Part shown: piece after piece, positions 3,895 to 33,806 of the stretch
How positions within the stretch are numbered: position 1 is the stretch's first letter
Layout: every line of letters begins with the position of its first letter
From: Synechococcales cyanobacterium bin59.metabat.ball.084
GTDB lineage: Bacteria > Cyanobacteriota > Cyanobacteriia > Cyanobacteriales > Chamaesiphonaceae
NCBI GenBank assembly: GCA_013297675.1
Contig: JAAFHZ010000038.1
Location: 1 to 34,248, forward strand
DNA length: 34,248 nucleotides
Direction of reading: 5' to 3'
Made by a program: the position numbers and the translations under genes
The notes under the pieces: model-generated
Seen by the model: the letters and a program-made list of their open reading frames with translations, nothing else
What the model was told of the DNA's origin: nothing
Databases searched by the model: none

Positions 3895-3910
3895 GCTTCT
3901 GGCTAGAGCA

Positions 3911-3995
3911 GTCTAACAAACCTGTTGCACGCCGACTAAAACCAATTTAACGACCCCCAAAATGCTCTAGTAGCGGGTGAACAGGAACGTTAGAC
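3911..3995 (+). other. attC site 2
   Basis: This site is 85 bp long, with perfect R boxes GTCTAAC (3911-3917) and GTTAGAC (3989-3995) and L boxes CCTGTT/AACAGG with the extrahelical G. The inner stems are the same as in attC-1. It closes the TIR/GIY-YIG cassette. The cut is expected after G3989. It is the best match to consensus of the five sites. Confidence 0.9.
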
Positions 3996-4061
3996 TGACA
4001 GTATTTTGATATGGAATATTTGCTAATCAATGAAAGCGCCAATTTAATGTAGAGAGGCAAT

Positions 4062-4763: not shown

Positions 4764-4770
4764 TCCGGCA

Positions 4771-4854
4771 GTCTAACAAACCCGTTGCACACCGACTGAG
4801 TTGGGCTGACAATCCTAAAAAGCTTCTAGCAGCGGGTGAACGGGAACGTTAGAC
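4771..4854 (+). other. attC site 3 (with covarying L boxes)
   Basis: This site is 84 bp long, with R boxes GTCTAAC (4771-4777) and GTTAGAC (4848-4854). Its L boxes are CCCGTT and AACGGG instead of CCTGTT and AACAGG. The T-A pair of sites 1, 2 and 4 has become C-G here, a compensatory double change that keeps the folded stem. The unpaired G is retained. The cut is expected after G4848. Confidence 0.9.
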
Positions 4855-4892
4855 CGCAAATCAAAAACTAAAAAAACCGGAGGAATAAAACC

Positions 4893-5877: not shown

Positions 5878-5883
5878 GGCGCA

Positions 5884-5968
5884 TTCTAACAAACCTGTTG
5901 CACGCCGACTAAAACCGAGTTGACGATCCCAAAGATCCTCTAGTAGCGGGTGAACAGGAACGTTAGAC
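5884..5968 (+). other. attC site 4
   Basis: This site is 85 bp long. The R'' box is TTCTAAC (5884-5890), with the first base off consensus and the outermost pair lost. The R' box is GTTAGAC (5962-5968). The L boxes CCTGTT/AACAGG and the extrahelical G are intact. It is very similar to attC-1 and attC-2. The cut is expected after G5962. Confidence 0.88.
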
Positions 5969-6002
5969 CGACAATTAGAAATATTTAGTACAATTCTCAT
6001 CA

Positions 6003-7079: not shown

Positions 7080-7107
7080 TTTCGCATAGTAGCTACTTGC
7101 GGATGCA

Positions 7108-7191
7108 GTCTAACAAACCCATTGCACGCCAACTCACCTGAGCTAATAATCCTAAAAAGTTTTTAGTAGCGGGTGAACGGGAACGTTATGC
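7108..7191 (+). other. attC site 5 (last, partly decayed)
   Basis: This site is 84 bp long. The R'' box GTCTAAC (7108-7114) is intact, but the R' box is GTTATGC (7185-7191), with one transversion breaking GTTRRRY. The L boxes are CCCATT and AACGGG: the C-G pair shared with attC-3 is kept, and an adjacent base pair is now A-C. It is the most degenerate of the five sites and the last of the array, which would reduce recombination at the right end. Confidence 0.8.
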
Positions 7192-7260
7192 CGTCTATTC
7201 TTTGGGTTGTGTCAGTGGTTCTACAGATGCTTATGAGTTCTCAAGATCGGCTAAGCTTGA

Positions 7261-11148: not shown

Positions 11149-14100
11149 CATTGACTGCTTTGTGTACTCTGTGGTTCGCCATCAATGGCTGAAGAATCCG
11201 AATTTGGAGTTACCGCTAATTCCAAGGCTCCATTGAGAATTTCTCGCTCTTCCTTGGCTAGTCCCAGCCAGAGGCGTTTTTGTTGGGTTGGTTGTTTTTT
11301 GTAAGCGATCGCCACATTCATCAGGCGCAGGGGCATTTCTAGGACGGGTTTGGTGCCGAGGAGGTTTTGCCACAGGGCTAACCATTCATCGGCGGTGTAG
11401 TCGCTGATGTTGGGGGCGAGGATTTGGGGGAGAGTGGCAATCAGGGCGGTGCTGAGTTCGGGGAGAACTTGGGCTTGTTGATAGATGGTGGCGAGTTGGG
11501 TGAGGAAGGTGGATATTTGCGGTTGTGAGTTTGGTAATGAGAAGCGAGGGATTAGTTCTTCGAGGAATTCTTGGATGTGTCCAGCGATATCATTGGGACG
11601 TGTAGTAAGTTGTTGGATAATTTGGAAAGTTCGTTGCCAAGAACTAAGGGCATCTTCGTAATTGCCCATAACAAATTGCACGACTCCTTTATCGTGCCAG
11701 GAATCATATAGATCTGACTCGATCAAGATCGCTTGGTTATAAAAATTGATTGATTCTAGATATTGACCCCATTTGAAATAAGTAAAACCTTTGTTATGAA
11801 TAGATTGATGGTTTTTAGGGTTAATGGAGATAGCCTGATCATAACTAGCGACCGCTTCTTCATATCTCCCTAAATTATCCAGAGAAATACCTCGATTATT
11901 CCAAGCTTCATCGTCATCGGGTTTAATCGAGATAGCCCGATCATAACTAGTGATCGCCTCTCCATACCTCCCTAAATTGTGTAGAGAGATACCTCGATTA
12001 GTCCAATCTTGATAATCTTCAGGGTTAATAGAGATAGACCGATCGTAACTAGCGATCGCTTCCTCATATCTCCCTAAATTGTGTAGAGAGATACCTCGAT
12101 TAGTCCAATCTTGATAATCTTCAGGGTTAATAGAGATAGACCGATCGTAACTAGCGATCGCTTCTTCATATTTTCCTAAACCACACAGAGAATTACCTCG
12201 GTTATACCAAGCTTCATGGTCATCAGGTTTAATCAAAATTGCCCGACCATAACTAGTGACCGCTTCATCATATCTTCCTAAACCATGCAGAGAAACACCT
12301 CGATTATTCCAAGCTTCATATTTATTGGATTTAATCAAGATCGCTCGATCATAACTAGAAATCGCTTCATCATATCTTCCTAAATTATGTAGAGAAACAC
12401 CTCTCATAATCCAAGCTTCATCTTTATCAGGTTTAATCGAAATCGCTCGATCATAACTAGAAATTGCTTCTTCATATCTCCCTAAATCATTCAGAGAATT
12501 ACCTCGGTTATACCAAGCTTCATGGTCATCAGGTTTAATCAGGATTGCCCGATCATAACTAGAAATCGCTTCCTCATATCTTCCTAAATCACACAGAGAA
12601 ATACCTCGATTATACCAAGCTTCATGTTTATCGGGTTTAATCGAAATCGCTCGATCATAACTAGCAGTGGCTTCTTCATATCTCCTTAAATCATGCAGAG
12701 AAACACCTCGCATAATCCAAGCATCAGAATACCTTTCATCCTCAGCCAAAACCGCATCAAACAGTTCTAGAGCCTCTGAAATCCCCCCTAATTCTAGTAG
12801 ATTCAATCCTTTCAAAAATTGCAATGAAAAGGTTAGCTCAGATTTCTCAACTGATCGATCTTTTTGACTGAGGCTCTCTGATAAGAGCTTCTGAGCTTCA
12901 CTATATCGATCGGTCTGCACCAATTCCAACAGCTCTTGGTAATTTTCTTCAGTCAGCCTTTTGCTATGAAATAATTCTTCTAATGTCTCAGTAGCTAATA
13001 ACTGTTGCTGTTCCTTCAACGCTCGCTGCAAGTCCCGCTGCGAACCAATAAAGCAGGGATCTTCATCGCTCAACAACGCCCGTTCTAAATGTTCATCTTT
13101 AATATATTGACTCCTACCCCGCATCAACTCCAACTGGTTCTTTCGTTCCGAAAGCGGATACCAAATCTTGAGAAACTCCACAAAAATCTCCACCCACTGC
13201 CCCCGCTGCTTTTTCACCTCCAAACACAAACGCATCAACACCTCCCGCAGCTCATAAAAAGACTCGCGCCCATTCTGCTCCGCTTCCACATAACCCAGTT
13301 TCCGCAACTCCCGCAACTGACTCGCCGCCGTCCCCGCATCGATAAAACAGTCCGCCGCAATTTCCTTCACCATCACCGGATGTCGCCTGTCCACCAATAA
13401 CTCCACAATCTTCCGCTGTTGATTGGATAACTCCTTCATCCGCGCTTGATAGTAGGGTGTCAAATCGTCCAGCATCTTCATAAATGCCTCCACCAAATTA
13501 TCCAAAGCATCCCGCGTAATAAACTGCGAAAACAGCATATACACCCGGGGATTTCCCCCCGCTAAATGATGCACCGCCCGCACCCGCGCCCGCCCCAAAG
13601 GCGTTTGTAAAAAACTCGCCAAATCCTCCTGTCCCCCTAAAGTGGCAATCTTCCCCAACATTTCGATCGCTTCTGGCACAGTCAACCTGTCCAGATGAAT
13701 CGGATTAAAAAAGCCAAAAAATGGTTTGGTACGACTTTGCACCGCAGTAAATAACGATGGAGTAGTGGCTAAAATTGTGCAGCACTGCTCCCCTTGCAAG
13801 AAAGACCGAAACTGTTGCTGACCCGCTTCTCCTAAGCCTTTAAACAGATCATCCAGGTTCTCCATGATCAGCAATAGAGTGCGATCGCCGATTGCTTCCT
13901 TCAATAATCGAGTTGCATTGGCCGCCGCTCGATCGATCGAATCCTCGATCGAAATCCGTCGTAACTCCTCTAGAAGCAATTTAGACTGAGTTTCTTCAAC
14001 CGCTAGAGCACGCAAAATCCGACTCACCAAATCTAGCCAGGAATCTACCCCCCATTCCTCCTCCCGCAACCAAGCAATCACGAGTTGATCTTGGAGCGTT

Positions 14101-28183: not shown

Positions 28184-29083
28184 CTAGGAGACATTTACCC
28201 AAAAGTCCGCAGTCACAATTTTGCCATTGCGGTTGAACTGCCCCCACATCTTGTATTTGCCAGCTTTGGGAAAAGTGGTCATAAAGTGAACTTCTCCACC
28301 GCTGCTATGTTCGGCAGCATGAGCATGGATGTAATCAGCGCGAGTGAGAGGAGTTGAATTTTTCATGATTACCAAATGTCCCCGTTCGCCCAAGTAGGGC
28401 TGCAAATCTGTGACCGGCTGGCCGTTAGCTTGCTGCATTTTAAATACCAGCATGGTTTCCTTACCAGCTTTGAGATCATCGGCAGTCAACTGTACTTTGG
28501 TGTCGCCGATCGCCTTTGGTGCAAGCGAAGCTATCAATTTGGCTTTGGTGAAATCCAATTTAGGTACAGATACTGGCTCACCAGCTACCTTGGCCTGCAT
28601 CAGTGATACCTGTTCCGCTTGACCGGCTGGTTTGTAATCGCTAAATAGGGTGTAATTGCCACTCTGTGGGAAATTGGCTCGGACTTCAAACCGGCCTTGT
28701 TGTTTGTAGACAGGATGAATGTGACTAAAGGTTTGCAGATCATCACTAACTACAATTAGGTGCATTAGCTTGGTTTGAAAGGTTTCAAATTTATCGATCA
28801 CCTGACCACTTTTAGCTTTAACATCAATAACCAACTTGGTTTCAGCGCCAGCTTGAATATTGCCAGCAGTTAATTTTGCCGTAGTAGTTTCGGCTCCAGG
28901 ATTTGCTGGCATTGCTATGCCTCCATGACTGCTGCCATGTCCTCCGTGATCATCATCCTCAGCTAGTTTAATATCAACAGATTTGGTTTGACCGACATTG
29001 CTATTTGTTTTATTGGCGAAACAAGCCGTGGTGGCTAAGAGCAATCCACCGCCAAGAATGATCGAAGTGATTAACTTTTGCAT
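28184..29083 (-). CDS. His-rich lipoprotein, probable periplasmic metal-binding
   Basis: This is a protein of 299 residues from ATG 29083 (MQKLITSIIL); a longer frame upstream lacks a signal sequence at its start. A signal segment ends in LATTACFAN, a near-lipobox that would give a lipidated Cys. A His/Asp/Gly-rich stretch (DDDHGGHGSSHGG) then probably binds metal. Two similar beta-rich halves follow, each with a pattern such as LMHLIVVSDDLQTFSHIHP ... FPQSGNYTLFSDY, and in the second HLVIMKN ... IHAHAAEHS ... FPKAGKYKMWGQF, seen in proteins encoded near CusA/CzcA pumps. The shared 36-bp element at 29116-29151 lies 33-68 bp before the start, which suggests control by the neighbouring RppA-like regulator. 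Confidence 0.65.
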   Translation of the reverse strand: MQKLITSIILGGGLLLATTACFANKTNSNVGQTKSVDIKLAEDDDHGGHGSSHGGIAMPANPGAETTTAKLTAGNIQAGAETKLVIDVKAKSGQVIDKFETFQTKLMHLIVVSDDLQTFSHIHPVYKQQGRFEVRANFPQSGNYTLFSDYKPAGQAEQVSLMQAKVAGEPVSVPKLDFTKAKLIASLAPKAIGDTKVQLTADDLKAGKETMLVFKMQQANGQPVTDLQPYLGERGHLVIMKNSTPLTRADYIHAHAAEHSSGGEVHFMTTFPKAGKYKMWGQFNRNGKIVTADFWVNVS

Positions 29084-29115: not shown

Positions 29116-29151
29116 CTATTATTTCACTCAATAGTGAATTGAAGATGAAAA
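29116..29151 (-). promoter_or_regulatory. Conserved 36-bp element, copy 1 (upstream of His-rich lipoprotein gene)
   Basis: Read on the minus strand the element starts TTTTCATCTTCAATTCACT, continues with ATTGAGTGAAATAATAG and contains repeated TTCA units. It is identical at 30 of 36 positions to the copy at 31678-31713 and in the same orientation relative to the minus-strand genes it precedes. OmpR/PhoB-type regulators bind such direct repeats, so this is a likely binding site for the RppA-like regulator. Confidence 0.6.
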
Positions 29152-29229
29152 TCACAGAAAGCTAATTTTGACGATCGGTTAATGTTGGTGTAGTCCTTAC
29201 GTCAAAGCCATTCTTATTTCCCGACAAAC

Positions 29230-30519
29230 CTATTTTTTTGTTTTCCAGCGCCAGATCCAAGCCAGATAACCGATCTCTATGATGCCGCCTATCAGCATTC
29301 CCAAGGAAGCTGCTATCGCCCCATTTTGTCCTAATTGCATTGCAAAATAAGCGGTTCCCAGCATTGCTATTGCCCCTATCCAGGCAGCATGATTCACAGC
29401 CCAAGTCCGTCCGGCGCTGACTAAAAAACCCTGAACAGCATTTTGCATTGATACCAAGAAAGGCACGGCTGTACAGATCAACAACACTGGTTGCACCCGT
29501 GAAATCAGCTCTTGATCATTCCCAATAAACCAGCCAATCACCGTTTCACTTAGAGGCGTGCCACTAATAAATAATAAAATCATGGAGCAGGCCATACCGA
29601 CTGTAATCGAAAATTTAATAAGTAGTTGAGTAGATATTATCTTTTGATTACGAATAATAATTTGTTGCACCATACGAGTAGAATTAGCAATCACCAAGAC
29701 CAAACCCCACGCAGCAGGCCAAGCTGCCAGGGCAATTTCCCCATCATTAGCACGAGCCACAATACCAATCAAAGCTGCTCGTGCGCCCCAGACCACAATC
29801 ATTGTGCCGCCTAAAGGGGCATAAAATTTCCAGACTGCTGCCAAGCTGTGAGGCAATTCTGGCTTTGATACAACTTTTGGAGGGTAAGTAACTTTTAATT
29901 TTTTGGCTAAGTAGGTGACAGTAACGGCTTCAGCAATTACACCCAGAACCAGACTTGTCCCGGCTATTGTCGTACCTGCAATTTTTAGGATACTTCCGAT
30001 AGCTAAAATTCCTATCACTGTTGCCAGCCGTATCAAGCTGGCTTGGGCGACGGCACTACCTTGACCAGCATGAATTAGTAAGCCCTGAAAGTATCTACGC
30101 CAACCGATCGCTAACGGCCACAAAATAACGATCATCACTATCGATCGCACCCGATCACTTAACTCTGGTGAAACATTTAACCATTTCTCACCAACTAGTG
30201 CGAAAATTGCCGGAGTAGCTGTTAATGATAAAAGCAGACTCATTGCCCCACTGATCATGAGGGTGAATTTCCATAGAGCCTGACGAGAAGCTTGAGTGGG
30301 GGCTAAAGCATTACTGGCATGAAGTAGCATAATAATTGGACTTTCGCAGAAAACAGCGATCGCCTTAGCCACACCTAAAGCCGCAATATTATTTCTAGAA
30401 TCTGGTAGATGAGCTAGGGTAGTAGTCGTTAGCGGATCGCCTAATGCCATGGTCACATCAGATAAACAGAGAGGAATAAATTGCTGCCAAAGTTGAATTA
30501 ACTGACGTTTTTGAGACAT
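29230..30519 (-). CDS. MATE-like multi-pass exporter
   Basis: This is a protein of 429 residues with about twelve hydrophobic segments and no large soluble domain. The overall pattern of two bundles of six helices and short loops fits the MATE/MOP flippase superfamily. Family-specific motifs are weak, so the substrate (drug, metabolite or lipid-linked sugar) is not given by the sequence. It is 19 bp downstream of the SbnA-like gene and in the same direction, so the two should be one transcript. Export of the enzyme product is a natural guess and remains unproven. Confidence 0.7.
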   Translation of the reverse strand: MSQKRQLIQLWQQFIPLCLSDVTMALGDPLTTTTLAHLPDSRNNIAALGVAKAIAVFCESPIIMLLHASNALAPTQASRQALWKFTLMISGAMSLLLSLTATPAIFALVGEKWLNVSPELSDRVRSIVMIVILWPLAIGWRRYFQGLLIHAGQGSAVAQASLIRLATVIGILAIGSILKIAGTTIAGTSLVLGVIAEAVTVTYLAKKLKVTYPPKVVSKPELPHSLAAVWKFYAPLGGTMIVVWGARAALIGIVARANDGEIALAAWPAAWGLVLVIANSTRMVQQIIIRNQKIISTQLLIKFSITVGMACSMILLFISGTPLSETVIGWFIGNDQELISRVQPVLLICTAVPFLVSMQNAVQGFLVSAGRTWAVNHAAWIGAIAMLGTAYFAMQLGQNGAIAASLGMLIGGIIEIGYLAWIWRWKTKK

Positions 30520-30538
30520 TTTTGCTGTTGAGAATTCT

Positions 30539-31621
30539 TTATGATAGGCTACATTCTACTTTGCTGATGCCAGATGAATTTTTGAGTTGAATTTCTAGCT
30601 CTAATTGGTCTTTAGTAAGTAAATTAATTTGATTATTTTGCAGCCAAGTATGATCATATACCGTTTCTAAGTATCGATCGCCCCGGTCTGGATTCAACAT
30701 TAAAATTTTCAAGGAATGCTCAGATCTTGCTTGGGCATAAGCCAAGCCACCAGCTAAAATTGCCCCGGTTGATGCCCCCAACAATAAACCCTCGCGCTGG
30801 GCGATTTGGTGGCAAAAAGAAAAAGCTACTTGATCGCTCACGGTATAAGCTACATCAAGGAGGTTAGGATTAAAATTAGGTGGGGTAAAAGACAGCCCTA
30901 ACCCGGTCATTTTATAAGAGAATCTGGGAGTGCCAAATACCGCTGAGCCTGCCACATCTACGCCAACTATTTTGGTGTTAGGGTAATGATTTTTAAAATA
31001 CCGACTAATTCCGGCTACCTGACCGGCTGTACTGACACCAATCACAATCACATCTGGGGCACCAGCAAAAGCTGTCTCAATTTCTTTGGCGGTGTAGATC
31101 TCGTGAGCATCGGGATTATGAGGATTAAGGTGCTGACAAGGATACCAAGCACCAGGTGTATTTTTAACTAGCTCCTGCGCTTTATCCATCCGAGCTATTT
31201 GCATCGAACCATGAATATCGGCCATATGTAGAGGAACTTCAACTAATTCAGCACCATGAGCAGTGAGGATGCGGCGCATAGTTGGACTTGTTTTGGCATC
31301 GATTACAATTTTTACCTGATAGCCACGCACTGCACCCACCATGGCCAAGGCAATACCAAAGTTGCCTGAGCTAGACTCAATAATTGTGCCACCCGGTGGC
31401 AGTAATCCTGCTGCTTCGGCTTGATTAACTAAACAAACTGCATTTTTTTCTTTAATGCTACCCCCTGGGTTACAAGATTCGAGCTTAAAATAGAGCTGGT
31501 GCTTTTGACATTGTGCACTCACCTTATTTACTCTAACAATGGGAACTGAACCAACTGCTGCGGTAAAATCTTGGGCAATATGTGGTGCCGAGAGCATTTG
31601 AAGAGTTTTAAGTGCAGTCAT
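30539..31621 (-). CDS. SbnA/cysteine-synthase-family PLP enzyme
   Basis: This is a protein of 360 residues. The PLP lysine motif is NPGGSIKEKNAV (Lys in SIK, about residues 51-62), followed by the phosphate-binding or substrate loop ESSSGNFGIALAMVG (about 83-97) and the GVSTAGQVAG loop (about 200-209). The C-terminal loop GASTGAILAGGL is also present. The family includes SbnA, which joins O-phosphoserine and Glu in the synthesis of 2,3-diaminopropionate, and cysteine synthases. KEKNA instead of KDRxA after the lysine leans toward SbnA-like enzymes. No SbnB-like dehydrogenase is in the window. The adjacent exporter, regulators and the shared promoter element suggest a small inducible pathway. 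Confidence 0.75.
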   Translation of the reverse strand: MTALKTLQMLSAPHIAQDFTAAVGSVPIVRVNKVSAQCQKHQLYFKLESCNPGGSIKEKNAVCLVNQAEAAGLLPPGGTIIESSSGNFGIALAMVGAVRGYQVKIVIDAKTSPTMRRILTAHGAELVEVPLHMADIHGSMQIARMDKAQELVKNTPGAWYPCQHLNPHNPDAHEIYTAKEIETAFAGAPDVIVIGVSTAGQVAGISRYFKNHYPNTKIVGVDVAGSAVFGTPRFSYKMTGLGLSFTPPNFNPNLLDVAYTVSDQVAFSFCHQIAQREGLLLGASTGAILAGGLAYAQARSEHSLKILMLNPDRGDRYLETVYDHTWLQNNQINLLTKDQLELEIQLKNSSGISKVECSLS

Positions 31622-31677
31622 AATTCGTTGTAAATTGATTAGTTAATAAGATATGGCCATGAATCTAATCAGCTAAA

Positions 31678-31713
31678 CTAATATTTCATGTAAAAGTGAA
31701 TCGAAGATGAAAA
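31678..31713 (-). promoter_or_regulatory. Conserved 36-bp element, copy 2 (between SbnA-like gene and regulator)
   Basis: The minus-strand reading begins TTTTCATCTTCGATTCACT and continues with TTTACATGAAATATTAG. It lies 57-92 bp before the SbnA-like start and 19-54 bp before the regulator start on the other strand, so it may serve both. Thirty of 36 positions match copy 1 at 29116-29151, which supports a common regulator. Confidence 0.6.
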
Positions 31714-31731: not shown

Positions 31732-32439
31732 ATGAGAATTTTATTCGCTGAAGATGAGCTAGACATTGGCAATGCTGTTCACCAAATCTTGAACCGAGAA
31801 GGTCATGTTACCGATTGGGTCATAGATGGTGTCGAGGCTTGGGAATGCTTACGGTCTAACTTTGTGTGCTATGAGTTAGCGATTTTAGACTGGATGATTC
31901 CCGGTATCTCTGGTATTGAAATATGTCAAAAACTACAGCGAAGCCAGCATCCAGTCAGAGTTTTGATGCTGACAGCCAAAGATACTATTAGCGATCGAGT
32001 GCAAGGACTAGATGCCGGAGCCGATGACTATTTAGTCAAACCCTTCAGGATGCCCGAGCTACTGGCCAGAATTCGATCGATCCAACGGCGACTAGATAGC
32101 CCGCTTCCAGCAACCGTTCTTAAAATTGGTAATTTGGCGCTCGATCAAAATACCTTAAAGGCGTATTCAATAGCCAATCCCATTGTTGTAATTGACTTAC
32201 ACGCTAAGGATTTTCGATTTTTAGAGTACTTGATGAGACACGTTAATATCATAGTGACTCGGGAGCAGATTGCTGAGGCGCTATTGCTGGAGGAAGATGC
32301 AAATACCCAGAACCTAATCACTGCACGGGTCAAAATCCTCCGCCAAAAACTAGCTGATATCGGCTTTCCTGAAGCTATTGAAAGTGTTTATGGTCAAGGA
32401 TACCGACTGGTCTGCGAGGCTTTTGGGCATCGACCATAA
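31732..32439 (+). CDS. RppA/NrsR-like OmpR-family response regulator
   Basis: This is a protein of 235 residues. ATG 31732 is preferred to the TTG at 31723. The receiver domain (residues 1-120) starts MRILFAEDELDIG with the acidic pair, has the phosphoacceptor Asp53 (LAILDWMIPGISG), the conserved MLTAKD and DDYLVKPFRMPELLAR blocks. The C-terminal half is an OmpR/PhoB-type winged helix ending in VYGQGYRLVCEAF. The closest known pattern is cyanobacterial RppA/NrsR, which regulate redox or nickel and other metal responses. The kinase gene begins 20 bp downstream. A conserved 36-bp element lies immediately upstream, consistent with autoregulation. Confidence 0.9.
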   Translation: MRILFAEDELDIGNAVHQILNREGHVTDWVIDGVEAWECLRSNFVCYELAILDWMIPGISGIEICQKLQRSQHPVRVLMLTAKDTISDRVQGLDAGADDYLVKPFRMPELLARIRSIQRRLDSPLPATVLKIGNLALDQNTLKAYSIANPIVVIDLHAKDFRFLEYLMRHVNIIVTREQIAEALLLEEDANTQNLITARVKILRQKLADIGFPEAIESVYGQGYRLVCEAFGHRP

Positions 32440-32459: not shown

Positions 32460-33806
32460 ATGCTTGAAAATCCACTTTTTAACAAAACTAGGCTACAAAT
32501 AGCTGCTTGGTATGCGGCTGGTACCGGCACTATTTTGATTTTAGTGAGTTTCTACATTTACTTTACGGTGAAAGATAACTATTGGTCAGCAATCAACCGC
32601 GAAACTTCATCTTTAGGCGGCACTCTGCATGATGCCTTGGAACCCAAGTTACAAGAACCGGGTGTGATTAATGAAAGCATTGATCGAGAAATTCTGCCAA
32701 ATTTATGTGTTAGGGGCAAAAACTGTCATGTGACTAACAACCCACAGCGCCATGTGTTGGGGGTTACTCAGCAAGAGGGTTACTATTTACGTTTTTACAG
32801 CCTACAAGGACAACTCATTGCTCAGTCTGGTACTCAGCCAACAGGAGAAATCTCTCCCAATTTTGGTAAATCTTTTCATTCTATAGATAGTGCTGGTCAA
32901 CATTACCATCGCTATTCCACTGGTTTAACCACTGCTGATGGTCGCCCTTGGGGGTTTTTGCAGGTTGGTCGATCGATGAAAGAATTTGATGAGCGGCTGG
33001 CTAATTTACAACTTCGGATGATGCTAATCCTTCCGGTCTTAATCCTATTTATTGCGCTAGTTAGTTGGTTGGTTGCTGGTCGTACCATGAAGCCAATTTA
33101 TAAATCCTATGCAAAAATGCAGCAGTTCACCGCTGATGCCGCCCATGAGTTACGTACACCATTGATGGCACTCCAAGCCACAGTGGAATTGATGCAGTAT
33201 TATGAACCGACAGAATATATTGAGCACCAGAAATCTTTGGCTGCAATCGATCGGCAGACTGAGCGACTGATTCAGCTTGCCCAAGATTTGTTAATGTTAT
33301 CTCGCTTAGATTCTCCCGTGGATCAAATGTCTGTTGAATCATGTTGCTTGAATCAGGTAGTACCATTGCTGGTGAAAAATTTTCAGTCTTTGAGCCAAGA
33401 AGCAGAAATAAATTTGAATATGGATCTGACAGCATCAGAATCGTTGCTAGTCAAAATTGATCGTATTCATTTGGAGCGCTTGTTAACCAATTTAGTGAGT
33501 AATGCAATCGAACATACCCCGGCTAATGGCACTGTGACGGTTAATATATCTCGTTCTGGCAATCAAGCGGTTTTGCAGGTTATGGATACGGGAGTAGGAA
33601 TACCACCGGCAGTACAAGCCAGAATCTTTGATAGGTTTTATAAGGCAACTGTCGATAGAGGTAGACGGTCTAACGGAGCTGGTTTGGGTTTGGCAATTGT
33701 TAAATCAATTGTGAGCAATTATGGTGGCGTAGTACTAGTGCAAAGTCAGTTGCAGCAAGGCAGTACCTTTACAGTTAAGCTACCCCTCTGCAAAATTAAC
33801 AGATGA
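32460..33806 (+). CDS. RppB/NrsS-like sensor histidine kinase
   Basis: This is a protein of 448 residues, 20 bp after the regulator. Two membrane segments (about residues 15-37 and 187-208) flank a periplasmic sensor of about 150 residues that contains two Cys in LCVRGKNCHV (near residue 82), possible metal ligands or a disulfide. A HisKA domain follows with ADAAHELRTPLMALQ (phospho-His about 229), then HATPase_c motifs LVSNAIEHTP (N box), DTGVGIPP (G1) and GAGLGLAIVKSI (G2). There is no HAMP domain that I can recognise. It should phosphorylate the adjacent regulator; the stimulus, probably a metal or redox signal, is inferred from homology with NrsS/RppB. Confidence 0.88.
   Translation: MLENPLFNKTRLQIAAWYAAGTGTILILVSFYIYFTVKDNYWSAINRETSSLGGTLHDALEPKLQEPGVINESIDREILPNLCVRGKNCHVTNNPQRHVLGVTQQEGYYLRFYSLQGQLIAQSGTQPTGEISPNFGKSFHSIDSAGQHYHRYSTGLTTADGRPWGFLQVGRSMKEFDERLANLQLRMMLILPVLILFIALVSWLVAGRTMKPIYKSYAKMQQFTADAAHELRTPLMALQATVELMQYYEPTEYIEHQKSLAAIDRQTERLIQLAQDLLMLSRLDSPVDQMSVESCCLNQVVPLLVKNFQSLSQEAEINLNMDLTASESLLVKIDRIHLERLLTNLVSNAIEHTPANGTVTVNISRSGNQAVLQVMDTGVGIPPAVQARIFDRFYKATVDRGRRSNGAGLGLAIVKSIVSNYGGVVLVQSQLQQGSTFTVKLPLCKINR

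Follow-up and report, generated by a model that had tools for sequence, protein, structure and literature searches.

The window, which is the whole stretch of 34,248 nucleotides that was analyzed, carries a His-rich putative lipoprotein gene and an SbnA-like/exporter operon on the minus strand, an rppA-rppB pair on the plus strand, and two copies of a 36-bp element. The features are as follows.

28184 to 29083, minus strand: His-rich putative lipoprotein (C-terminal YtkA-like match below the Pfam cut-off)
29116 to 29151, minus strand: copy 1 of the 36-bp element, before the lipoprotein gene (pairwise repeat comparison)
29118 to 29126, minus strand: extended -10 of promoter 1, TGAAATAAT (conserved offset from the box)
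29134 to 29150, minus strand: predicted RppA-type box 1, TTTCATCTTCAATTCAC, a direct repeat with an 11-bp period
29230 to 30519, minus strand: MATE/MOP-fold exporter, second operon gene (structure model, fold search)
30539 to 31621, minus strand: SbnA-like PLP enzyme (PF00291), first operon gene (profile matches, alignment)
31678 to 31713, minus strand: copy 2 of the 36-bp element, between the SbnA-like gene and rppA (pairwise repeat comparison)
31680 to 31688, minus strand: extended -10 of promoter 2, TGAAATATT (conserved offset from the box)
31696 to 31712, minus strand: predicted RppA-type box 2, TTTCATCTTCGATTCAC
31732 to 32439, plus strand: OmpR-family response regulator of the RppA type, a divergent member (NF041734 match, tree)
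32460 to 33806, plus strand: sensor histidine kinase of the RppB type, with a periplasmic Cys pair (NF041735 match)

The two copies of the element lie where the original prediction placed them, in the same orientation, and are identical at 30 of 36 positions. When both intergenic regions were dinucleotide shuffled (2000 pairs), the best ungapped 36-mer had a mean of 20.6 matching positions and a maximum of 27, confirming that the two-copy repeat exceeds chance expectation. A search of Rfam returned no family at threshold. The TTCA direct repeats that had been noticed are present on the minus strand with an 11-bp period. Read on this strand, each copy has a 17-bp direct repeat, TTTCATCTTC[A/G]ATTCAC, which a spacer of 7 bp separates from an extended -10, TGAAATA(A/T)T. 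The sequence upstream of the lipoprotein gene is TTTCATCTTCAATTCAC-TATTGAG-TGAAATAAT, and the one upstream of the SbnA-like gene is TTTCATCTTCGATTCAC-TTTTACA-TGAAATATT. In both copies the half-sites are TTCAT and TTCAC, the second differing from TTCAT by one base. Since the box and the extended -10 are on the minus strand in both copies, the 36 bp are predicted to form a whole promoter core, directed leftward at the lipoprotein gene (32 bp from element to ATG) and the SbnA-like/MATE operon (56 bp) and not at rppA. The original prediction had put the element before three units; as a promoter core it faces the lipoprotein gene and the SbnA-like/exporter operon, whereas activation of the divergent regulator from it is unsupported, since the core is directed the other way and the rppA start codon lies 18 bp beyond the end of the element.

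The adjacent response regulator, expected to be of the OmpR type, is RppA-type by both the NCBIfam cut-off and a tree. It passes the curated RppA cut-off of 250 (NF041734) with 274.6 bits (274.1 as a genome match), and the kinase passes the curated RppB cut-off of 400 (NF041735) with 501.6 bits. The regulator scores low beside canonical RppA members (303-419 bits) and near a second response regulator group (about 253-276 bits), while in the tree it falls inside the RppA clade (47 rows, support 97/96) and outside the low-scoring clade, on a long branch (1.55) and with the bootstrap unsettled. Its recognition helix, NLITARVKILRQKL in place of NVVAAQxRLLRRKL, is the only changed one among the compared RppA-clade rows. 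The periplasmic Cys pair of RppB is found in 34 of 40 rows (one gene entered twice). The NF041734 cut-off of 250 also lets in the separate clade (about 253-276 bits), so that automatic annotation probably gives the name RppA to too many cyanobacterial proteins. The genome encodes a second, canonical RppA at C113 (383.4 bits). At that site a type I restriction-modification-like island (L264, 2538-11199) separates the second rppAB from the intergenic region with its box, and in the same-genus genome G292 the equivalent box directly precedes rppA.

The genome of origin (4.64 Mb, 220 contigs) was searched for the motif, as the original prediction had proposed. The 18-bp core GTGAATNGAAGATGAAAA gave two matches with no mismatch, none with one or two, and 14 with three, 16 in total against 20 for the reversed-pattern control. 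A widened 17-bp pattern gave seven exact matches, and 36 with at most one mismatch against 15 for the control. When the widened box was combined with the extended -10, only the two window sites matched without a mismatch, a uniqueness that is not independent because the box part had been widened to fit them; there was one mismatch at C95 and at C113 and two at six more sites, and 70 matches were found with at most three mismatches against 36 for the control. Other exact matches to the widened pattern were rejected as regulon members: the sites at C95, C191, and C113 are followed by a MazF-like pair, an S41-protease-like ORF, and hsdM, respectively, and those at C139 and C164 fall inside predicted ORFs. 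A site at C148 from the combined search was likewise rejected, as it has no suitable gene. An exact box before a MazF-like gene pair occurs both in this genome and in G292 (L143 1501-1517, L196 4643-4659), which may reflect chance or common descent.

Relatives of the SbnA-like gene were sought in 292 genomes of the phylum, and 31 of them gave a match at E 1e-60. Identity was at least 58% for 20 loci, including the window's own; with two loci found through RppA and one in a Bacteriovoracaceae MAG, these make up a set of 23. An exporter gene adjoins the SbnA-like gene in 21 of these 23 loci, and an RppA relative (at least 44%) is present in 16 within the fetched stretches, several of which end at contig ends. 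The exact consensus box TTTCAYCNNNATTTCAY stands within 400 bp upstream of the SbnA-like gene in 14 loci and is absent from that interval in nine, among them the window. A one-base variant precedes the SbnA-like gene in locus L094, and in genome G197 (L078) the box is found farther upstream, before a DUF305 gene that heads the gene row. Two boxes are present in the divergent locus L092, the second one directed at rppA; in L093 only the SbnA-facing box was found.

A scan of 18 genomes yielded 37 exact boxes against eight for the reversed control; these genomes had been picked since they had supplied sites, so that the phylum scan described below is the real test. In four of them (G022, G074, G078, and G149) there is one exact box, before SbnA-like/MATE, and in G118 the single exact box precedes lipoprotein-rppA. 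Exactly two boxes are present in G229, before SbnA-like/MATE and before lipoprotein-rppAB, which is the window's own pairing, and in G313, before DUF305-rppAB and before SbnA-like/MATE. In other families, too, the orthologous promoters of SbnA-like/MATE and of lipoprotein-rppAB carry this box, which argues for the shared operator that had been proposed.

The lipoprotein, whose C-terminal YtkA-like match falls just short of the Pfam cut-off (24.1 vs 25.9 bits), is present in 25 of 285 genomes. Its gene has an exact box within 100 bp in three other loci (G229, G241, and G118), all adjoining rppA, a variant box in front in G064, and an exact box 438 bp upstream in G072. The other scanned lipoprotein loci, that is, most orthologues, had no box, including L105, L137, and L142, in which the gene adjoins rppA.

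Across 285 genomes, the phylum scan found 130 exact boxes in 68 genomes and 18 for the reversed control (tallied from printed columns). Half of the boxes (65 of 130) are no more than 10 kb from an rppA gene (at least 300 bits), where 0.5 were expected. When the genomes seen earlier were excluded, 48 of 103 exact boxes in the held-out genomes were within this distance against 0.4 expected. A box is present in 46 of 63 genomes with rppA (at least 300 bits), leaving 17 of the 63 without an exact box, and in 22 of 222 genomes without rppA; within the window's own order the figures are 42 of 51 and 8 of 32, and as the genomes are related, Fisher values overstate independence. The promoter signature followed the same boxes, although the extended -10 had played no part in the box model or in box finding. 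T25, G26, A29, and T33 occur all four together downstream of the box in 54 of 99 distinct contexts, with 0-2 at each other offset, and the signature stands at the fixed offset in 31 of 50 phylum-scan loci and in both window copies. A gene start lies only downstream in 53 of 98 box contexts and only upstream in five.

First genes, up to 350 bp downstream of the box, were assigned for 53 distinct phylum-scan boxes, out of the 130, by BLAST against Pfam-identified representatives; the downstream genes of sites from the 18-genome scan were also examined. Behind the 53 boxes we found 10 CusB-type adaptors, eight DUF305 proteins, six RND pumps, four multicopper oxidases, two DUF411 proteins, one outer-membrane efflux protein, three RppA, three DUF2808 proteins, six other genes, and in 10 cases none. 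Genes for copper or heavy-metal efflux or binding, or rppA, thus account for 34 of the 53. As assigned from sequence, this is a copper and heavy-metal profile that does not fix the specific metal, and together with the clustering of boxes near rppA it supports the metal signal suggested originally. In one locus (L232, G091:C3:3038000-3057900), seven boxes within 15 kb stand before two rppA genes and DUF305, CusB-type, RND, DUF2808, and small secreted-protein genes.

Compared with the consensus from outside the window, the two window boxes have one and two departures at fixed positions and are exact only to the pattern widened for them. With a matrix built from 15 outside promoters, they are the two top-scoring sites of the window (13.1 and 12.9). 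We rejected the matrix score alone as proof: in 40 random windows (34 kb) the top score averaged 12.1 and reached 16.6.

From the observed box, -10, spacing, conservation, and genomic link to rppA and metal-defense genes, we hypothesize, with a probability of about 0.77, that the 36-bp element comprises the activator box and extended -10 of two co-regulated promoters activated by RppB/RppA in response to metal. RppB would sense a metal in the periplasm, most likely a heavy metal such as copper, and would phosphorylate RppA; phosphorylated RppA would then bind the direct repeat TTTCATC-N3-[A/R][T/A]TTCAY upstream of both the lipoprotein gene and the SbnA-like/MATE operon and, positioned beside the extended -10 at PhoB-like spacing, would switch both promoters on. 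In PhoB-type promoters an 11-bp direct repeat ends about 10 bp before the -10, as it does in the present promoter core; the present element differs in its repeat sequence and in having an extended -10. The comparative data make a two-promoter regulon well supported and suggest that it is most likely activated by RppA under metal stress; that the adjacent RppA is the protein that binds, that it activates and does not repress, and which metal is sensed are points that we infer.

The two promoters could instead be bound by the second RppA at C113 or by another TTCAT-reading regulator of the CopR or ManR type. The C113 protein is a canonical RppA that is now cut off from its own box by the restriction-modification island, and the available part of PMC4182526 reports TTCATN4-5TTCAT in Synechocystis for the cop promoters, for the region upstream of mntC, and for the interval separating nrsRS from nrsBACD. 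However, both window sites share the departures RATTCAC for ATTTCAY, and it is the adjacent RppA alone that has a changed recognition helix among the compared rows; this single case fits co-variation of box and helix, and we regard binding by a regulator other than the adjacent RppA as unlikely. It is highly improbable that the two elements arose by recent duplication of a stretch of promoter and share no regulation. The 30/36 identity does fall within one short block, but the similarity does not extend past the box and -10. Orthologous promoters in other families carry this box amid unrelated flanking sequence, and throughout the phylum the -10 keeps its offset.

A different signal, redox or light in place of metal, would be expected if RppA reported the plastoquinone redox state through Hik2 as in Synechocystis. 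For that organism the available part of PMC13421787 reports that Hik2 transfers phosphate to RppA and that RppA targets include pigment genes; the Cys pair of RppB could likewise serve as a redox switch. The genes behind the boxes are, however, metal efflux and metal-binding genes, and no first gene out of 53 was assigned to pigment synthesis (six were left as other and 10 boxes were without a gene), so we give this possibility little credence and favor metal as the probable signal for RppB/RppA.

RppA/RppB correspond to NrsR/NrsS (Hik30-Rre33) of Synechocystis, which function in nickel tolerance and control nrsBACD and their own operon, according to the portions of PMC4284471 and PMC13421787 available. 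Both window proteins match the same NCBIfam equivalogs, and NrsR/NrsS is a metal-responsive OmpR/PhoB-type pair, as is predicted for the window's pair. In contrast to NrsR/NrsS, the linked targets in the window are the His-rich lipoprotein gene and the SbnA-like/MATE operon, the regulator is on a long branch, and the box is unlike the RppA motif AAMAWCTCYYWCCCC given for Synechocystis in the accessible part of the review (PMC13421787). As a window site, that motif was rejected because it matched at chance level (18 matches vs 14.65 expected). The CopR box of Synechocystis (copMRS, copBAC), TTCATN4-5TTCAT in the available text of PMC4182526, is a TTCAT direct repeat read by a cyanobacterial metal-responsive OmpR-type regulator; the window copies resemble it with one TTCAT half-site and a second, TTCAC, that is one base away, and DUF305 and RND genes stand behind the present box in other genomes. 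The present box differs in having the form TTCAT-N6-TTCAY with an 11-bp period, a spacer of 6 and never N4 or N5, and an extended -10 at a fixed offset. The proposed regulon is a variation on the known CopR/NrsR TTCAT-repeat theme.

The box as defined here is the 17-bp consensus TTTCAYCNNNATTTCAY with the extended -10 TGNNANNNT. In the accessible literature on the RppA regulon, cyanobacterial SbnA, and cysteine synthase with MATE and copper, which included few subscription papers, we found no description of this box or of SbnA-like/MATE under RppA. By the literature surveyed, the new parts are therefore the box definition, the fixed -10, and the SbnA-like/MATE membership. They would provide an operator for a widespread cyanobacterial metal-stress regulator, unlike the two motifs quoted above from partly available sources, and would place the SbnA-like enzymes in a physiological setting by linking a little-studied enzyme/exporter pair to metal stress.

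The SbnA-like enzyme has its best SbnA-family match at 286.9 bits, under the TIGR03945 cut-off of 349.95. SbnA is the N-(2-amino-2-carboxyethyl)-L-glutamate synthase of staphyloferrin B, and its Arg132 and Ser185 are said to select O-phosphoserine in the available part of PMC12414870. The positions aligned with these two residues are kept in 23 of 23 loci, whereas the position aligned with Tyr152 is an invariant His in all 23 (residue mapping read from the alignment by eye). Further differences from SbnA are the MATE exporter next to the window enzyme and the lack of an SbnB-like gene among the gene clusters common to at least four SbnA-like loci, as judged by example sequences. The window exporter itself had no Pfam match, and its predicted structure (pLDDT 89.8) assigns it to the MATE/MOP fold, with MATE/MOP proteins as the top PDB matches (best TMq 0.72 at rank 1); a relative in L017 passes Pfam MatE (34.7 vs 24.9).

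In the available text of PMC9414260, cyanobacterial SbnA-like enzymes are discussed chiefly because they might produce diaminopropionate and BMAA. As a predicted member of the regulon, the SbnA-like/MATE pair may be the source of an exported chelator. Tentatively, and as a speculative extension, the pair might be a minimal two-gene metallophore system. An amino-acid chelator, of ACEGA or diaminopropionate type, would be made by the beta-replacement enzyme and exported by MATE; RppAB would induce the pair when metal is in excess, and the chelator and the His-rich lipoprotein would jointly keep metal out of the cell. The box might then represent the first operator of RppA-type regulators to span the phylum, co-varying with the recognition helix in the window's divergent pair. 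A scan of a genome-contig collection with the SbnA-like protein found one locus, in the Bacteriovoracaceae MAG (L017 5899-8296), where the SbnA-like/MATE pair has no adjacent metal genes in 13 kb.

Elsewhere in the window are five repeats of about 91 nt (2012-2100, 3908-4000, 4768-4856, 5881-5973, and 7105-7193), spaced 0.9-1.9 kb apart, that end in (G)TCTAAC...GTTAGAC or nearly so and fold as imperfect hairpins (z -1.2 to -4.5). We take them to resemble the integron attC sites of a cassette array. Nine tandem units of 102 nt, 68-84% alike in register, occupy positions 11679-12794, a unit length that equals that of 34-residue protein repeats.
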